Source: Candidatus Symbiothrix sp.
GTDB lineage: Bacteria; Bacteroidota; Bacteroidia; Bacteroidales; Azobacteroidaceae
DNA: 10,263 nucleotides
NCBI GenBank assembly: GCA_031270525.1
Contig: JAISXN010000156.1
Span: 1 to 10,263, forward strand
Direction: 5' to 3'
Part shown: positions 7,820 through 10,263 of the stretch, in pieces
Layout: each line of letters opens with the position of its first letter
How positions within the stretch are numbered: position 1 is the first letter of the stretch
Notes under the pieces: generated by a model
What the model saw: the letters and a program-made list of their open reading frames with translations, nothing else
What the model was told of the DNA's origin: nothing
Databases searched by the model: none
Translations under genes and position numbers: made by a program

Positions 7820-9638
7820 ATTTCTTACACCTGACGCTATGCAAGTTGTACTTATTGTTAGTGGTACGGTACGCACCCGTGGGGCTACTATCCAGACTCC
7901 GACGCCATGCAGCTGTCGCACTAACGGCACTACTGGACCAGAAGCTCGTGCCCGAGCCGAAATTGATGCTACTACCGCCTCCAAAGGTACCCACTATCAA
8001 CGCATTGAAGCCGGTACCGTTTTTGTTGCTTACACCGTTGGGAGCAGTACTGACGTCTAGGTTGTTTGCGGTTTTAACTCTAGTGCTACTTTTCATAGTG
8101 CGCCCCCACCAGTTTAAACCGGAGTTTCCTTCTCCCGGACGCCAACCGGTATAAGTTTCATATGATGAATTCCATGTATATGCAGTTTGCTCGCTAGAGT
8201 ATTTCTCCGGATGGGTTGCAATCTCTTCTTCCAATTGATTCCAATCGTAATCACTGGGCAGTGTCCAGCCTTCCGGACAAATCCCCTGACGATCGGATGT
8301 TTTGCCAATAAATGCATTCTTAGCCTCGGTCGTTTCTGTGCCGATATTAGCGGCGCCCCAAGTATACAAAAATCCATATTCGAACGGAGAATTTGTATTA
8401 CCTCCAGGATAATAATAAACAACAGCATTCGGATCATTGGATTCATTCGTGCCTTCGGGTATTGTCTGTACTTGATTTCCCTGCTTAGTCTTCTTAGAAC
8501 GCAAATTCTGAGTCATCCAGCAAACACCGCCGAATCTGGAAATCGTATATGAATTGCCTTCCGCATCCAACAATCCGGCAACAGGCGAACATTCGTCCCT
8601 GTCTCCAACGGTAATTGTTCGCTCAAGTATATAATCTTGATGACCATCGTTTACAGTACATTGTAAAACAATCGTGTCGGCAACACCTGGTTTGTTTACA
8701 AGATCTCCGTCTGATAGGATGTTTCCATTGAGAGTAAATTCCACTTCAGAATTTGTATTGGGGGTACTCAAAGAAGCATGGCCGCCTGGATCCCTGCTAA
8801 TACTCCATTGGTAAGAAACAGGTGTTGGTCCGGCTACCGGTTCAACAGCATAGGTGCCGGTTAGCGTCCTATTATATCCACTTAAAGATCCATTATCATC
8901 TCTTTTGGTAGGATCATTATAAGGGGTAACAAGAATATCATATCCCGTAGGGCCGGTAATTCTATACCAGCTTTGATACTTACCTGGAGTGGAAACTACT
9001 TCTTCTTCCGACCACCACTCCGGCTCGGGAGCCCCGTTGTTGGGAATCGCTTTTACTTTGGCCGTGTAAGTTCGCTCCGTGCCGTCATAAGGAACAAACA
9101 CGACTTCCTGTCTGCTGCCTGAAACCGAAGGAACGAGATTGTCATAAGAAGGTTCACCATTTGCCGTTATCTCCCAAATAAACCGGGCTGTATTATTCAT
9201 ATCACCGTATGAGGTTGGCACTTGGAAAGTCACACCCAATCCCAAAGCGGGATTAGAAAGGACTTCCACTGTCGGAGCGGTTGCAATCGGTTGCATGGAA
9301 CTGTTGCCTGCAAGCGTCCGTTGAATAGGCACCCATCCGCCATTGCCCCAAACATAAACACCTTTACCCAAATAGAAATTATCGTTGGTATTCCAAACGA
9401 TAGCTCCGTCCAAGGGAATTTTACCATTTAATGTCTGATCTGTCTCTTCTAACTGGATACGGGGAAGCAAGAATCCTCCAAAATTACCGGCAGGTTCATC
9501 TGCGTCATCGGCATTCAAATCCAGCACGGCAGAACCATGAGGTCCGGCTGTACCGCCAATTCGAACCTGCGCCTTTAAATTTGCTGTTCCCGAAATAATC
9601 AGGAACAGCATAAACATCAAAAAAAGTACTTTTTTCAT
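7818..9638 (-). CDS. Secreted FISUMP-domain surface protein (Fibrobacter major paralogous domain)
   Basis: This 606-residue exported protein begins with a signal peptide (MKKVLFLMFMLFLIISGTAN followed by LKAQ; probable cleavage near residue 24). Residues 25-105 match the N-terminal segment of many Bacteroidota surface proteins (GSAVLDLNADD, GGFLLPRI, GAIVWNTNDNFYLGKGVYVW). Residues about 120-345 look like one or two Ig/PKD-like domains (ARFIWEI, YTAKVKAIPNNG, VSYQWSI, TIVLQCTVNDG). Residues about 350-606 form the FISUMP domain: DAEGNSYTISRFGGVCWMTQ, YGFLYTWGAA, QGICPEGWTLPSDYDWNQLE, FNALIVGTFGGG, and a terminal FWSSS ... LHSVRCKK. I see no lipobox cysteine and no clear C-terminal sorting domain, so its anchoring is unknown. 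The role is probably a cell-surface or secreted binding function; no catalytic motif is visible. No TAnnTTTG promoter points at it, and the upstream control region looks invertible. Confidence 0.87.
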   Translation of the reverse strand: MKKVLFLMFMLFLIISGTANLKAQVRIGGTAGPHGSAVLDLNADDADEPAGNFGGFLLPRIQLEETDQTLNGKIPLDGAIVWNTNDNFYLGKGVYVWGNGGWVPIQRTLAGNSSMQPIATAPTVEVLSNPALGLGVTFQVPTSYGDMNNTARFIWEITANGEPSYDNLVPSVSGSRQEVVFVPYDGTERTYTAKVKAIPNNGAPEPEWWSEEEVVSTPGKYQSWYRITGPTGYDILVTPYNDPTKRDDNGSLSGYNRTLTGTYAVEPVAGPTPVSYQWSISRDPGGHASLSTPNTNSEVEFTLNGNILSDGDLVNKPGVADTIVLQCTVNDGHQDYILERTITVGDRDECSPVAGLLDAEGNSYTISRFGGVCWMTQNLRSKKTKQGNQVQTIPEGTNESNDPNAVVYYYPGGNTNSPFEYGFLYTWGAANIGTETTEAKNAFIGKTSDRQGICPEGWTLPSDYDWNQLEEEIATHPEKYSSEQTAYTWNSSYETYTGWRPGEGNSGLNWWGRTMKSSTRVKTANNLDVSTAPNGVSNKNGTGFNALIVGTFGGGSSINFGSGTSFWSSSAVSATAAWRRSLDSSPTGAYRTTNNKYNLHSVRCKK

Positions 9639-9747
9639 CTTTTTTCCAAATTTTTCAATTTTTCTTTAACATTTGTTTACATTTAACCAAAATCCTTGTA
9701 ATTATCTCAATCACAAGCACATAATCAATCAATTTTTGTATTTTAAA

Positions 9748-9774
9748 TGTCTGTCACTGTATAGGTGACGGACA
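9748..9774 (+). repeat. Left inverted repeat of putative invertible segment
   Basis: A 27-bp site with arm TGTCTGTCAC, core TGTATAG and arm GTGACGGACA; the arms pair with one T:G mismatch. It is the exact reverse complement of 10108-10134. The GTCAC, 7 bp, GTGAC layout is that of a tyrosine-recombinase crossover site with an asymmetric spacer that gives the site a direction. Confidence 0.85.
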
Positions 9775-9903
9775 CTCGTTATAACACATTGTTTTTAAGA
9801 TAGTTAAGAGAGCAAATGTTTACAAAATGTTTTACTAATTGTTAAAATTGGCAGAAGGGTTTTGAGAAAAAGTGGCTTAAAATATTGAACTTAAGATACT
9901 TAA

Positions 9904-10062
9904 ATGGCTCAAGAAACTTACTTGCTTGCTAAACATTTGTTAAACAAGCTTACAATCAATGATTTAGGAGTAAAAAAACACAAAAAACAGCCATGCAAAT
10001 TGACAGTTCGGCAAGCTCACCGGACAAGTAGAAATTCATTCAATTGGATAATAATCAATTAG
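9904..10062 (+). CDS. Possible small basic protein, 52 residues (uncertain)
   Basis: An ATG at 9904 opens a 52-codon frame ending in TAG at 10060, entirely inside the putative invertible segment. The product starts MAQETYLLAKHLLNKLTIND and is rich in Lys, Arg and His in its middle. I recognise no family. There is no clear ribosome binding site or promoter in front, and the TACCTTTG element lies downstream of it. In A/T-rich DNA a frame of this length can arise by chance, so this is a weak call. Confidence 0.18.
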   Translation: MAQETYLLAKHLLNKLTINDLGVKKHKKQPCKLTVRQAHRTSRNSFNWIIIN

Positions 10063-10073
10063 TTAAAGATTTA

Positions 10074-10081
10074 TACCTTTG
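10074..10081 (+). promoter_or_regulatory. -7 element TACCTTTG inside the invertible segment
   Basis: TACCTTTG fits TAnnTTTG exactly and faces right, with an expected start near 10087-10089. The best upstream TTG (10044-10046) is 27 bp away, too far for an ideal -33. A dyad AATTG (10042-10046) / CAATT (10056-10060) sits where the -33 should be and may bind an activator. The transcript would run through the right inverted repeat toward 10255. Confidence 0.45.
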
Positions 10082-10107
10082 TAGCGAATTGATAATGAAA
10101 ACCGAAA

Positions 10108-10134
10108 TGTCCGTCACCTATACAGTGACAGACA
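10108..10134 (-). repeat. Right inverted repeat of putative invertible segment
   Basis: A 27-bp site with arm TGTCCGTCAC, core CTATACA and arm GTGACAGACA, identical to the left site read on the other strand. Identity ends sharply: the three A before each site are shared, but bases beyond differ, so the repeat is bounded and not part of a longer duplication. Confidence 0.85.
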
Positions 10135-10190
10135 AGTTTGTTAAATGTTTTATCGTATTTTTAGCCGGATAACTCCGCCGGACAAGGCTA

Positions 10191-10221
10191 TTTGAATTGT
10201 AAAAAAAAATGTTTATATTTG
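10191..10221 (+). promoter_or_regulatory. Bacteroidota-type promoter of the rightward gene
   Basis: TTTG at 10191-10194, a 19-bp spacer and TATATTTG at 10214-10221 match the consensus exactly, making this the best promoter in the window. The start would be near 10228, about 27 nt before the ATG at 10255. It lies outside the inverted repeats, so it would stay in place whichever way the segment faces. Confidence 0.7.
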
Positions 10222-10254
10222 CAGGAGAAAAAATAAAATAAAAACAACCAAACG

Positions 10255-10263
10255 ATGCAAGAA
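10255..10263 (+). CDS. Start of a rightward gene, cut by window end
   Basis: Only ATG CAA GAA (Met-Gln-Glu) is inside the window. The call rests on the consensus promoter 34 bp upstream and the A-rich, stop-free approach typical of Bacteroidota start sites. The product cannot be identified. It is the gene divergent from the FISUMP gene and would be the natural second client of the invertible segment. Confidence 0.4.

Follow-up and report, generated by a model that had tools for sequence, protein, structure and literature searches.

A putative invertible promoter upstream of a surface-protein gene in Candidatus Symbiothrix sp., one of a set of similar modules

The segment at positions 9748-10134 is quite likely an invertible promoter, belonging to an OFF-biased set that is flipped by a tyrosine recombinase and controls surface proteins. 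It was found in the window, which is the whole stretch of DNA analysed (10,263 nucleotides) and is contig 74 of a draft genome of Candidatus Symbiothrix sp. (G000; 53% complete, 1.49 Mb, 230 contigs), presumably a gut symbiont. Under the proposed mechanism, a tyrosine recombinase would act at two 27-bp sites and flip the 333-bp interior between them. In the assembled orientation, the promoter would read away from the surface gene, which would be the OFF state. A flip would reverse the promoter, making it read across the L site and then the 109-bp leader to reach the surface gene, which would be the ON state. Since many loci share nearly the same sites, one recombinase should control a repertoire of surface proteins, each of which would be ON in only a minority of cells. 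Neither the membership of a genome-wide set nor the direction of the assembled promoter, away from the surface gene, was part of the original prediction for this segment.

Paired sites and a promoter-like box in the window

The features of the window are listed in Table 1. The original prediction described a perfect 27-bp reverse-complement pair about 330 bp apart, with GTCAC/GTGAC arms around an asymmetric 7-bp core, and this description proved exact. The L and R sites are reverse complements at 27/27 bp with 333 bp between them, and each is a near-palindrome of the form TGTCyGTCAC-N7-GTGACrGACA with the core TGTATAG, or CTATACA when inverted. In positions 9000-10263, the longest perfect inverted repeat is 27 bp, compared to a maximum of 14 and a median of 10 in 40 dinucleotide shuffles. 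With up to three mismatches allowed, the 27-mer was matched twice in the window and never in 200 shuffles. Because neither set of shuffles came near these values, the inverted pair is beyond chance. The arms had also been expected to differ from those of the GTTAC-N7-GTAAC class of Bacteroides invertible promoters, and they do. Both window sites carry GTCAC/GTGAC, and a second type of site in the same-genus genome G018 (type II) carries GTCAC/ATGAC.

The -7 box in the interior, TACCTTTG, points away from the surface gene. Promoters were recognised throughout by motif alone, and TANNTTTG is given as the Bacteroides -7 consensus in parts of a study of Bacteroides fragilis (PMC4747536). At the usual -33 spacing, no TTG was found in the window promoter, and no -33 TTG is conserved across 32 promoter ends. 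In its place, the promoter ends have a GGATARTAATCAAT-like block upstream of the -7 box. The window copy of this block, GGATAATAATCAAT, could perhaps be an activator site.

The segment was thought to lie between a surface-protein gene and a divergent gene. The first of these is clearly present on the minus strand, and the second is plausible, with an ATG at 10255 and three codons visible up to position 10263, where the contig stops and the window with it. Rfam returned no family at the gathering score for the window or for nine relatives' loci.

Table 1. Features of the putative switch region and its surroundings, with positions in the window
Feature	Position	Strand	Remarks
Surface-protein gene, 606 aa	7818..9638	-	Signal-peptide-like start (by eye)
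Leader between L site and surface-gene ATG, 109 bp	9639..9747	-	No TANNTTTG on the gene's strand
L site (recombination-type, surface-gene side)	9748..9774	+	TGTCTGTCAC-TGTATAG-GTGACGGACA
Putative invertible interior, 333 bp	9775..10107	.	Promoter box near right end
Block GGATAATAATCAAT upstream of -7 box	10046..10059	+	Similar in other copies (reading of 32 promoter ends)
Bacteroidales -7 box TACCTTTG (TANNTTTG)	10074..10081	+	Starts 34 bp inside R site
R site (recombination-type, far side)	10108..10134	-	Exact reverse complement of L site
Conserved R flank, TTGTTAAATGTTTTA type, outside R site	10135..10152	+	
Promoter box TATATTTG ahead of right-hand ATG (10255)	10214..10221	+	

Copies of the module and their orientation

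A search of the draft genome for GTCAC-N7-GTGAC yielded 23 sites, and a control search with the reversed pattern yielded none. Eighteen of the sites form nine pairs about 360 bp apart, and five have no exact partner. The original prediction had proposed such a search for further inverted pairs and had counted single, partnerless copies of the 27-mer as a point against a switch; most sites turned out to be partnered (18/23). Among the 58 genomes searched, this one included, the longer form of the site was confined to the draft genome and G018, which has 71 sites (at most one mismatch) and 22 pairs. A Prevotellaceae MAG (L091) also has a homologous module, with a surface-gene start of the same kind. 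The tally used below therefore comprises 32 pairs: 9 from the draft genome, 22 from G018 and 1 from the Prevotellaceae MAG. Outside this tally are three diverged G018 pairs (L113, L117, L118) and a diverged pair in Dysgonomonas sp. 521 (L064), which is 92% complementary and lies near a gene that looks FISUMP-like by eye. In the contig search for the site, 34 of the 46 matches fell outside Bacteroidales, and these, of which L096 was inspected, are probably due to chance. Phage contigs gave 0 matches for both core types.

A MITE, that is, a miniature transposon with 27-bp terminal inverted repeats, could also give rise to numerous scattered copies that are similar in length and have inverted ends. 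However, the homology between copies passes the repeats on both sides. With a 556-nt query in which the sites lie at 49-75 and 409-435, the best six other copies aligned over query positions 1-446 to 1-465. Also, the L side holds a surface gene at a nearly fixed distance, and the ends are near-palindromes in their own right, each built around an asymmetric core. A MITE is thus very improbable, and it was dropped since the homology continues outside the repeats and the element does not end at them.

In 36 comparisons between the nine pairs of the draft genome, the sites have a median identity of 98%, as opposed to 77% for the interiors. Two chromosomal slots (G000:C61/G018:C18 and G000:C43/G018:C30) hold modules in both species. 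The interiors of these modules are just 58% identical, and their cores differ between the species while being alike at both sites of a module. From a reading of protein starts, the slots adjoin a clpB-like gene and electron-transfer-type genes, respectively.

The orientation of each module was assigned by the homology of its interior to that of the window. Of the 32 pairs, 29 are bordered by one surface-gene (L) flank and one R flank; the remaining three have R flanks on both sides. The promoter end abuts the R flank in all 29 two-sided modules, which corresponds to OFF. In 28 of these, the distance from the L site out to the start of a surface-type gene is 75-119 bp, and the remaining one is cut by a contig end. 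An exact TANNTTTG directed away from the surface gene is present in 25/29 modules, at a distance of 33-35 bp inward from the R site. On the strand of the surface gene, TANNTTTG was found in 0/29 leaders and in 1/29 interiors (C90). Because the leader has no promoter box and the gene starts 75-119 bp beyond the site, a flip would turn the surface gene on. The five single sites of the draft genome have the same junction between promoter end and R flank. From the sequence and the gene positions, the diverged G018 pairs L117 and L118 also appear to be OFF; at L113, no gene is visible. The L flank of L117 (G018:C170) is a hybrid in which R-flank sequence, in inverted form, takes the place of the end, resulting in a 41-nt inverted repeat (L117:8352-8392 and 8735-8775).

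No flipped copy was found among the 29 two-sided assembled modules. A search of G018 for the ON junction in its type-II form, with up to three mismatches and a pattern that had no positive control, gave 0 matches. One orientation in 29/29 modules is improbable under a 50:50 mixture, so the switch is either strongly OFF-biased or non-flipping. The idea of an invertible promoter is borne out by the paired sites, the promoter-like box and the surface gene, but not by a flipped form. The flipped form had been expected in relatives, and a single orientation throughout is among the outcomes that the original prediction itself listed against a switch.

The uniform orientation is also what a fixed, non-inverting module would show. 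In such a module, the promoter would serve the right-hand neighbour, at whose start codon the window promoter points, and the near-palindromes would be regulator sites or transcript hairpins. Against this, a fixed module would leave the 28 visible surface-type gene starts without a promoter box in the leader and, with one exception, in the interior. Moreover, TANNTTTG occurs separately on the R side, no more than 400 bp away, in 17 of the 29 modules, in a count without a chance control. We consider a fixed module unlikely. A strongly OFF-biased switch would give the same uniform orientation. The readings weighed here and below overlap, and the likelihoods given to them are not meant to sum to one.

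Possible exchange at the sites and candidate recombinases

Several features suggest, indirectly, that recombination takes place at the sites: the greater likeness of sites than of interiors in the draft genome, the hybrid L flank of G018:C170, and the patterns in cores and flanks set out next. In G018, both sites have equal cores at 21/22 loci, compared to 11.1 expected, and 0/20000 shuffles reached 21, although the shuffle ignores the kinship of duplicated loci; one locus has unequal cores. In the draft genome, equal cores were found at 8/9 loci with 8.0 expected, so the test is uninformative there. Since related loci could inherit equal cores, core changes were also counted on a tree of the G018 interiors. 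The L core changed 6 times, the R core 7 times and the pair jointly 7 times on this tree, which has low support on several branches and in which one change is the split of two TATATAG loci from the rest. About six core changes thus appear to have been concerted between the two sites of a locus.

The three loci with R-type flanks on both sides (R-R loci) are C145 and C217 in the draft genome and C193 in G018. Exchange between loci at the sites gives L-L and R-R products, and the R-R topology therefore points to such exchange. Crossing-over inside two interiors, by our reasoning, would give only L-R hybrids. The L-L loci expected alongside were absent from the 32 pairs. Gene neighbours were searched for in relatives within about 1.5 kb, or less at contig ends, for C145 and C217. 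At C145, the downstream neighbour of the right-hand gene is conserved in 13/13 relatives with an orthologue, and the gene on the opposite side of the switch adjoins the right-hand gene in 0/13. For C217, strong matches occurred in 33 relatives, 29 of which had an examinable locus. The left gene keeps its upstream neighbour in 21/29 of these, and the gene on the opposite side of the switch adjoins the left gene in 0/29. G018 has no orthologue of either query. Both loci therefore bring together genes that do not lie side by side in any of the relatives examined.

The joint change of paired cores and the existence of R-R loci also speak against the fixed module, as does the link of the site class to recombinase genes in Bacteroides sp. 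224 (see below). The R-R loci raise another possibility, which overlaps with the promoter switch: the sites may work mainly between loci, swapping surface genes among slots, with local flips as a by-product. The new gene neighbours at C145 and C217 fit with this, and so do the two slots that hold different modules in the draft genome and G018. Yet 29/32 pairs are ordinary L-R modules, and the L-L product is missing from the tally. Swapping as the main function is, in our estimation, fairly unlikely.

For the OFF-biased promoter switch, a tyrosine recombinase is the enzyme that we propose. The features by which the site class was judged, inverted arms and an asymmetric 6-8 bp core equal between partners, were found in the draft genome (8/9) and G018 (21/22), and an arm-7-arm site geometry fits tyrosine enzymes. 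The contig search found five exact sites at four loci of Bacteroides sp. 224. Four of the five fall within ORFs for tyrosine recombinases, at the 3' end, and the remaining one is an inverted partner. This association of the same GTCAC/GTGAC class with tyrosine-recombinase genes supports the type of site that the original prediction had assigned. At two of the loci, a partner site with a matching core lies 2.4 kb away in inverted orientation and is 97% complementary. The 2.4-kb segments, from the recombinase 3' end to the inverted partner (L063:4483/6949 and L077:2103/4554), are probably a self-linked inversion system, as far as their layout suggests. At L060, no partner was found in the stretch searched, and at L069 the sequence ends too soon for a partner search.

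Two G018 proteins, C58 (416 aa) and C14 (434 aa), share 35-41% identity with the Bacteroides sp. 224 enzymes, and both have Phage_int_SAM_5 and Phage_integrase domains. As aligned, these candidate recombinases lack Arg at the position where Xer enzymes usually carry their first catalytic Arg. Matches to C58 (E <=0.001) occur in 30/38 same-genus genomes, the draft genome and G018 included. The nearest relative of C58 outside G018 is 47% identical and belongs to G010, which has no sites. Since relatives of C58 occur in same-genus genomes without sites, the presence of this family does not track that of the sites. The draft genome has two Phage_integrase matches, an Xer-like enzyme and one more distant integrase, and a search of this 53%-complete assembly revealed no enzyme closely resembling the Bacteroides sp. 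224 recombinases.

The switch itself would also be compatible with a serine recombinase of the Mpi type inverting the segment instead of a tyrosine enzyme. G018 has a 200-aa serine recombinase frame, and Mpi is described as inverting 13 B. fragilis regions in parts of PMC4747536. In contrast, none was found in the draft genome (53% complete), the same site class sits in the tyrosine-recombinase genes of Bacteroides sp. 224, and the site geometry suits tyrosine enzymes. We regard a serine enzyme as quite improbable.

Surface proteins and comparison with known switches

The window surface protein has a C-terminal FISUMP domain (PF09603) at residues 369-604. Its predicted structure was too poor for a fold search (mean pLDDT 53), and no meaningful relative was found among solved structures (best E 0.59). 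The starts of these proteins are more alike than their ends: 15 G018 surface proteins have a median identity of 53% in the first 100 residues and 29% in the last 150 (105 comparisons). Of 14 surface proteins of this group compared with Pfam, the window protein among them, 13 gave matches at E <=0.001 to FISUMP, Lcl_C, Big_2 or PKD-type domains, several of them below the curated cut-off, and the G018 C155 protein has no match. The surface proteins may act as adhesins or lectins. There are 28 FISUMP matches in G018 and 3 in the draft genome, compared to 54, 34 and 32 in same-genus genomes without sites. Because the site-free genomes have as many or more, the family does not need the switch in order to expand.

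Other inverted repeats beside surface genes were scanned for at 24 loci (L213-L236), of which one is from G018 and some cover the same place. A few had repeats of other sequence. One of these, in another species (G009), precedes a FISUMP-type gene and may be a switch that uses a different kind of site; it is a 29-nt inverted repeat (L235:2493-2521 and 2677-2705) with 90% complementarity and 155 bp between its arms. In three same-genus genomes that have no GTCAC-N7-GTGAC sites, an element of about 200 nt lies upstream of the same surface-protein family (L220:1946-2143, L222:2661-2857 and L230:1886-2084, all on the minus strand), with related stretches in L218 and L219. It has 66 predicted pairs, 14 with compensatory changes in five aligned copies, and no Rfam match at the gathering score, with weak sub-threshold ones only. 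This element may be a structured RNA or a DNA hairpin.

Taken further, one recombinase and a near-identical site might link dozens of loci, combining promoter flipping with between-locus recombination, so that each cell would express few, or just one, of a large and otherwise silent set of surface proteins and chromosome rearrangement would recur, in a manner resembling antigenic variation. We hold this wider reading only tentatively. If the promoter switch as proposed is correct, promoter inversion would extend from about a dozen loci per enzyme, as in B. fragilis (PMC4747536), to tens, within one surface-protein family. Nearly all loci would be silent at once, raising the question of how the OFF bias or mutual exclusion is enforced. 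The GTCAC/GTGAC site class is linked to the recombinase family in Bacteroides sp. 224, and recombination sites would be tied to chromosome rearrangement in a lineage known here only from draft genomes.

A literature search on invertible promoters or phase variation together with termite gut gave nothing matching among titles and abstract starts, and no paper linking FISUMP to phase variation was found. The literature matches listed for stretches of the site look unrelated by title. The Vpma system of Mycoplasma agalactiae is reportedly a single clustered locus with a single promoter; here, unlike Vpma, the loci are dispersed, each with its own promoter segment. The two are alike in that multiple surface lipoproteins are switched in Vpma, as described in parts of PMC2268961.

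The closest comparison is with B. fragilis, where the master invertases Tsr19, Tsr0667 and Mpi carry out promoter inversion at multiple loci: two for Tsr19, three gene clusters and nine other regions for Tsr0667, and 13 regions for Mpi (PMC4747536, in part). As in that account, a promoter with TANNTTTG lies between inverted sites, the controlled genes are outer-membrane or surface genes, and one enzyme would govern distant loci. In contrast to it, the modules described here amount to 22 pairs in G018 and nine in the draft genome, which is 53% complete; they involve one recurring gene family and are uniformly OFF as assembled. Gut Bacteroidota invertons have been sorted into 146 groups by repeat homology, and the present modules resemble them in having homologous inverted repeats with the Bacteroidota promoter motif (PMC11892184, in part). 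Some of those invertons are nearly always in one orientation, and the main text of that paper, against which the arms were compared, contains neither GTCAC, GTTAC nor FISUMP. The mechanism would be that of these known systems, from which the present modules differ in the number of loci with one gene family and in the uniform OFF state; their GTCAC/GTGAC arms set them apart from the GTTAC-N7-GTAAC class named in the original prediction.
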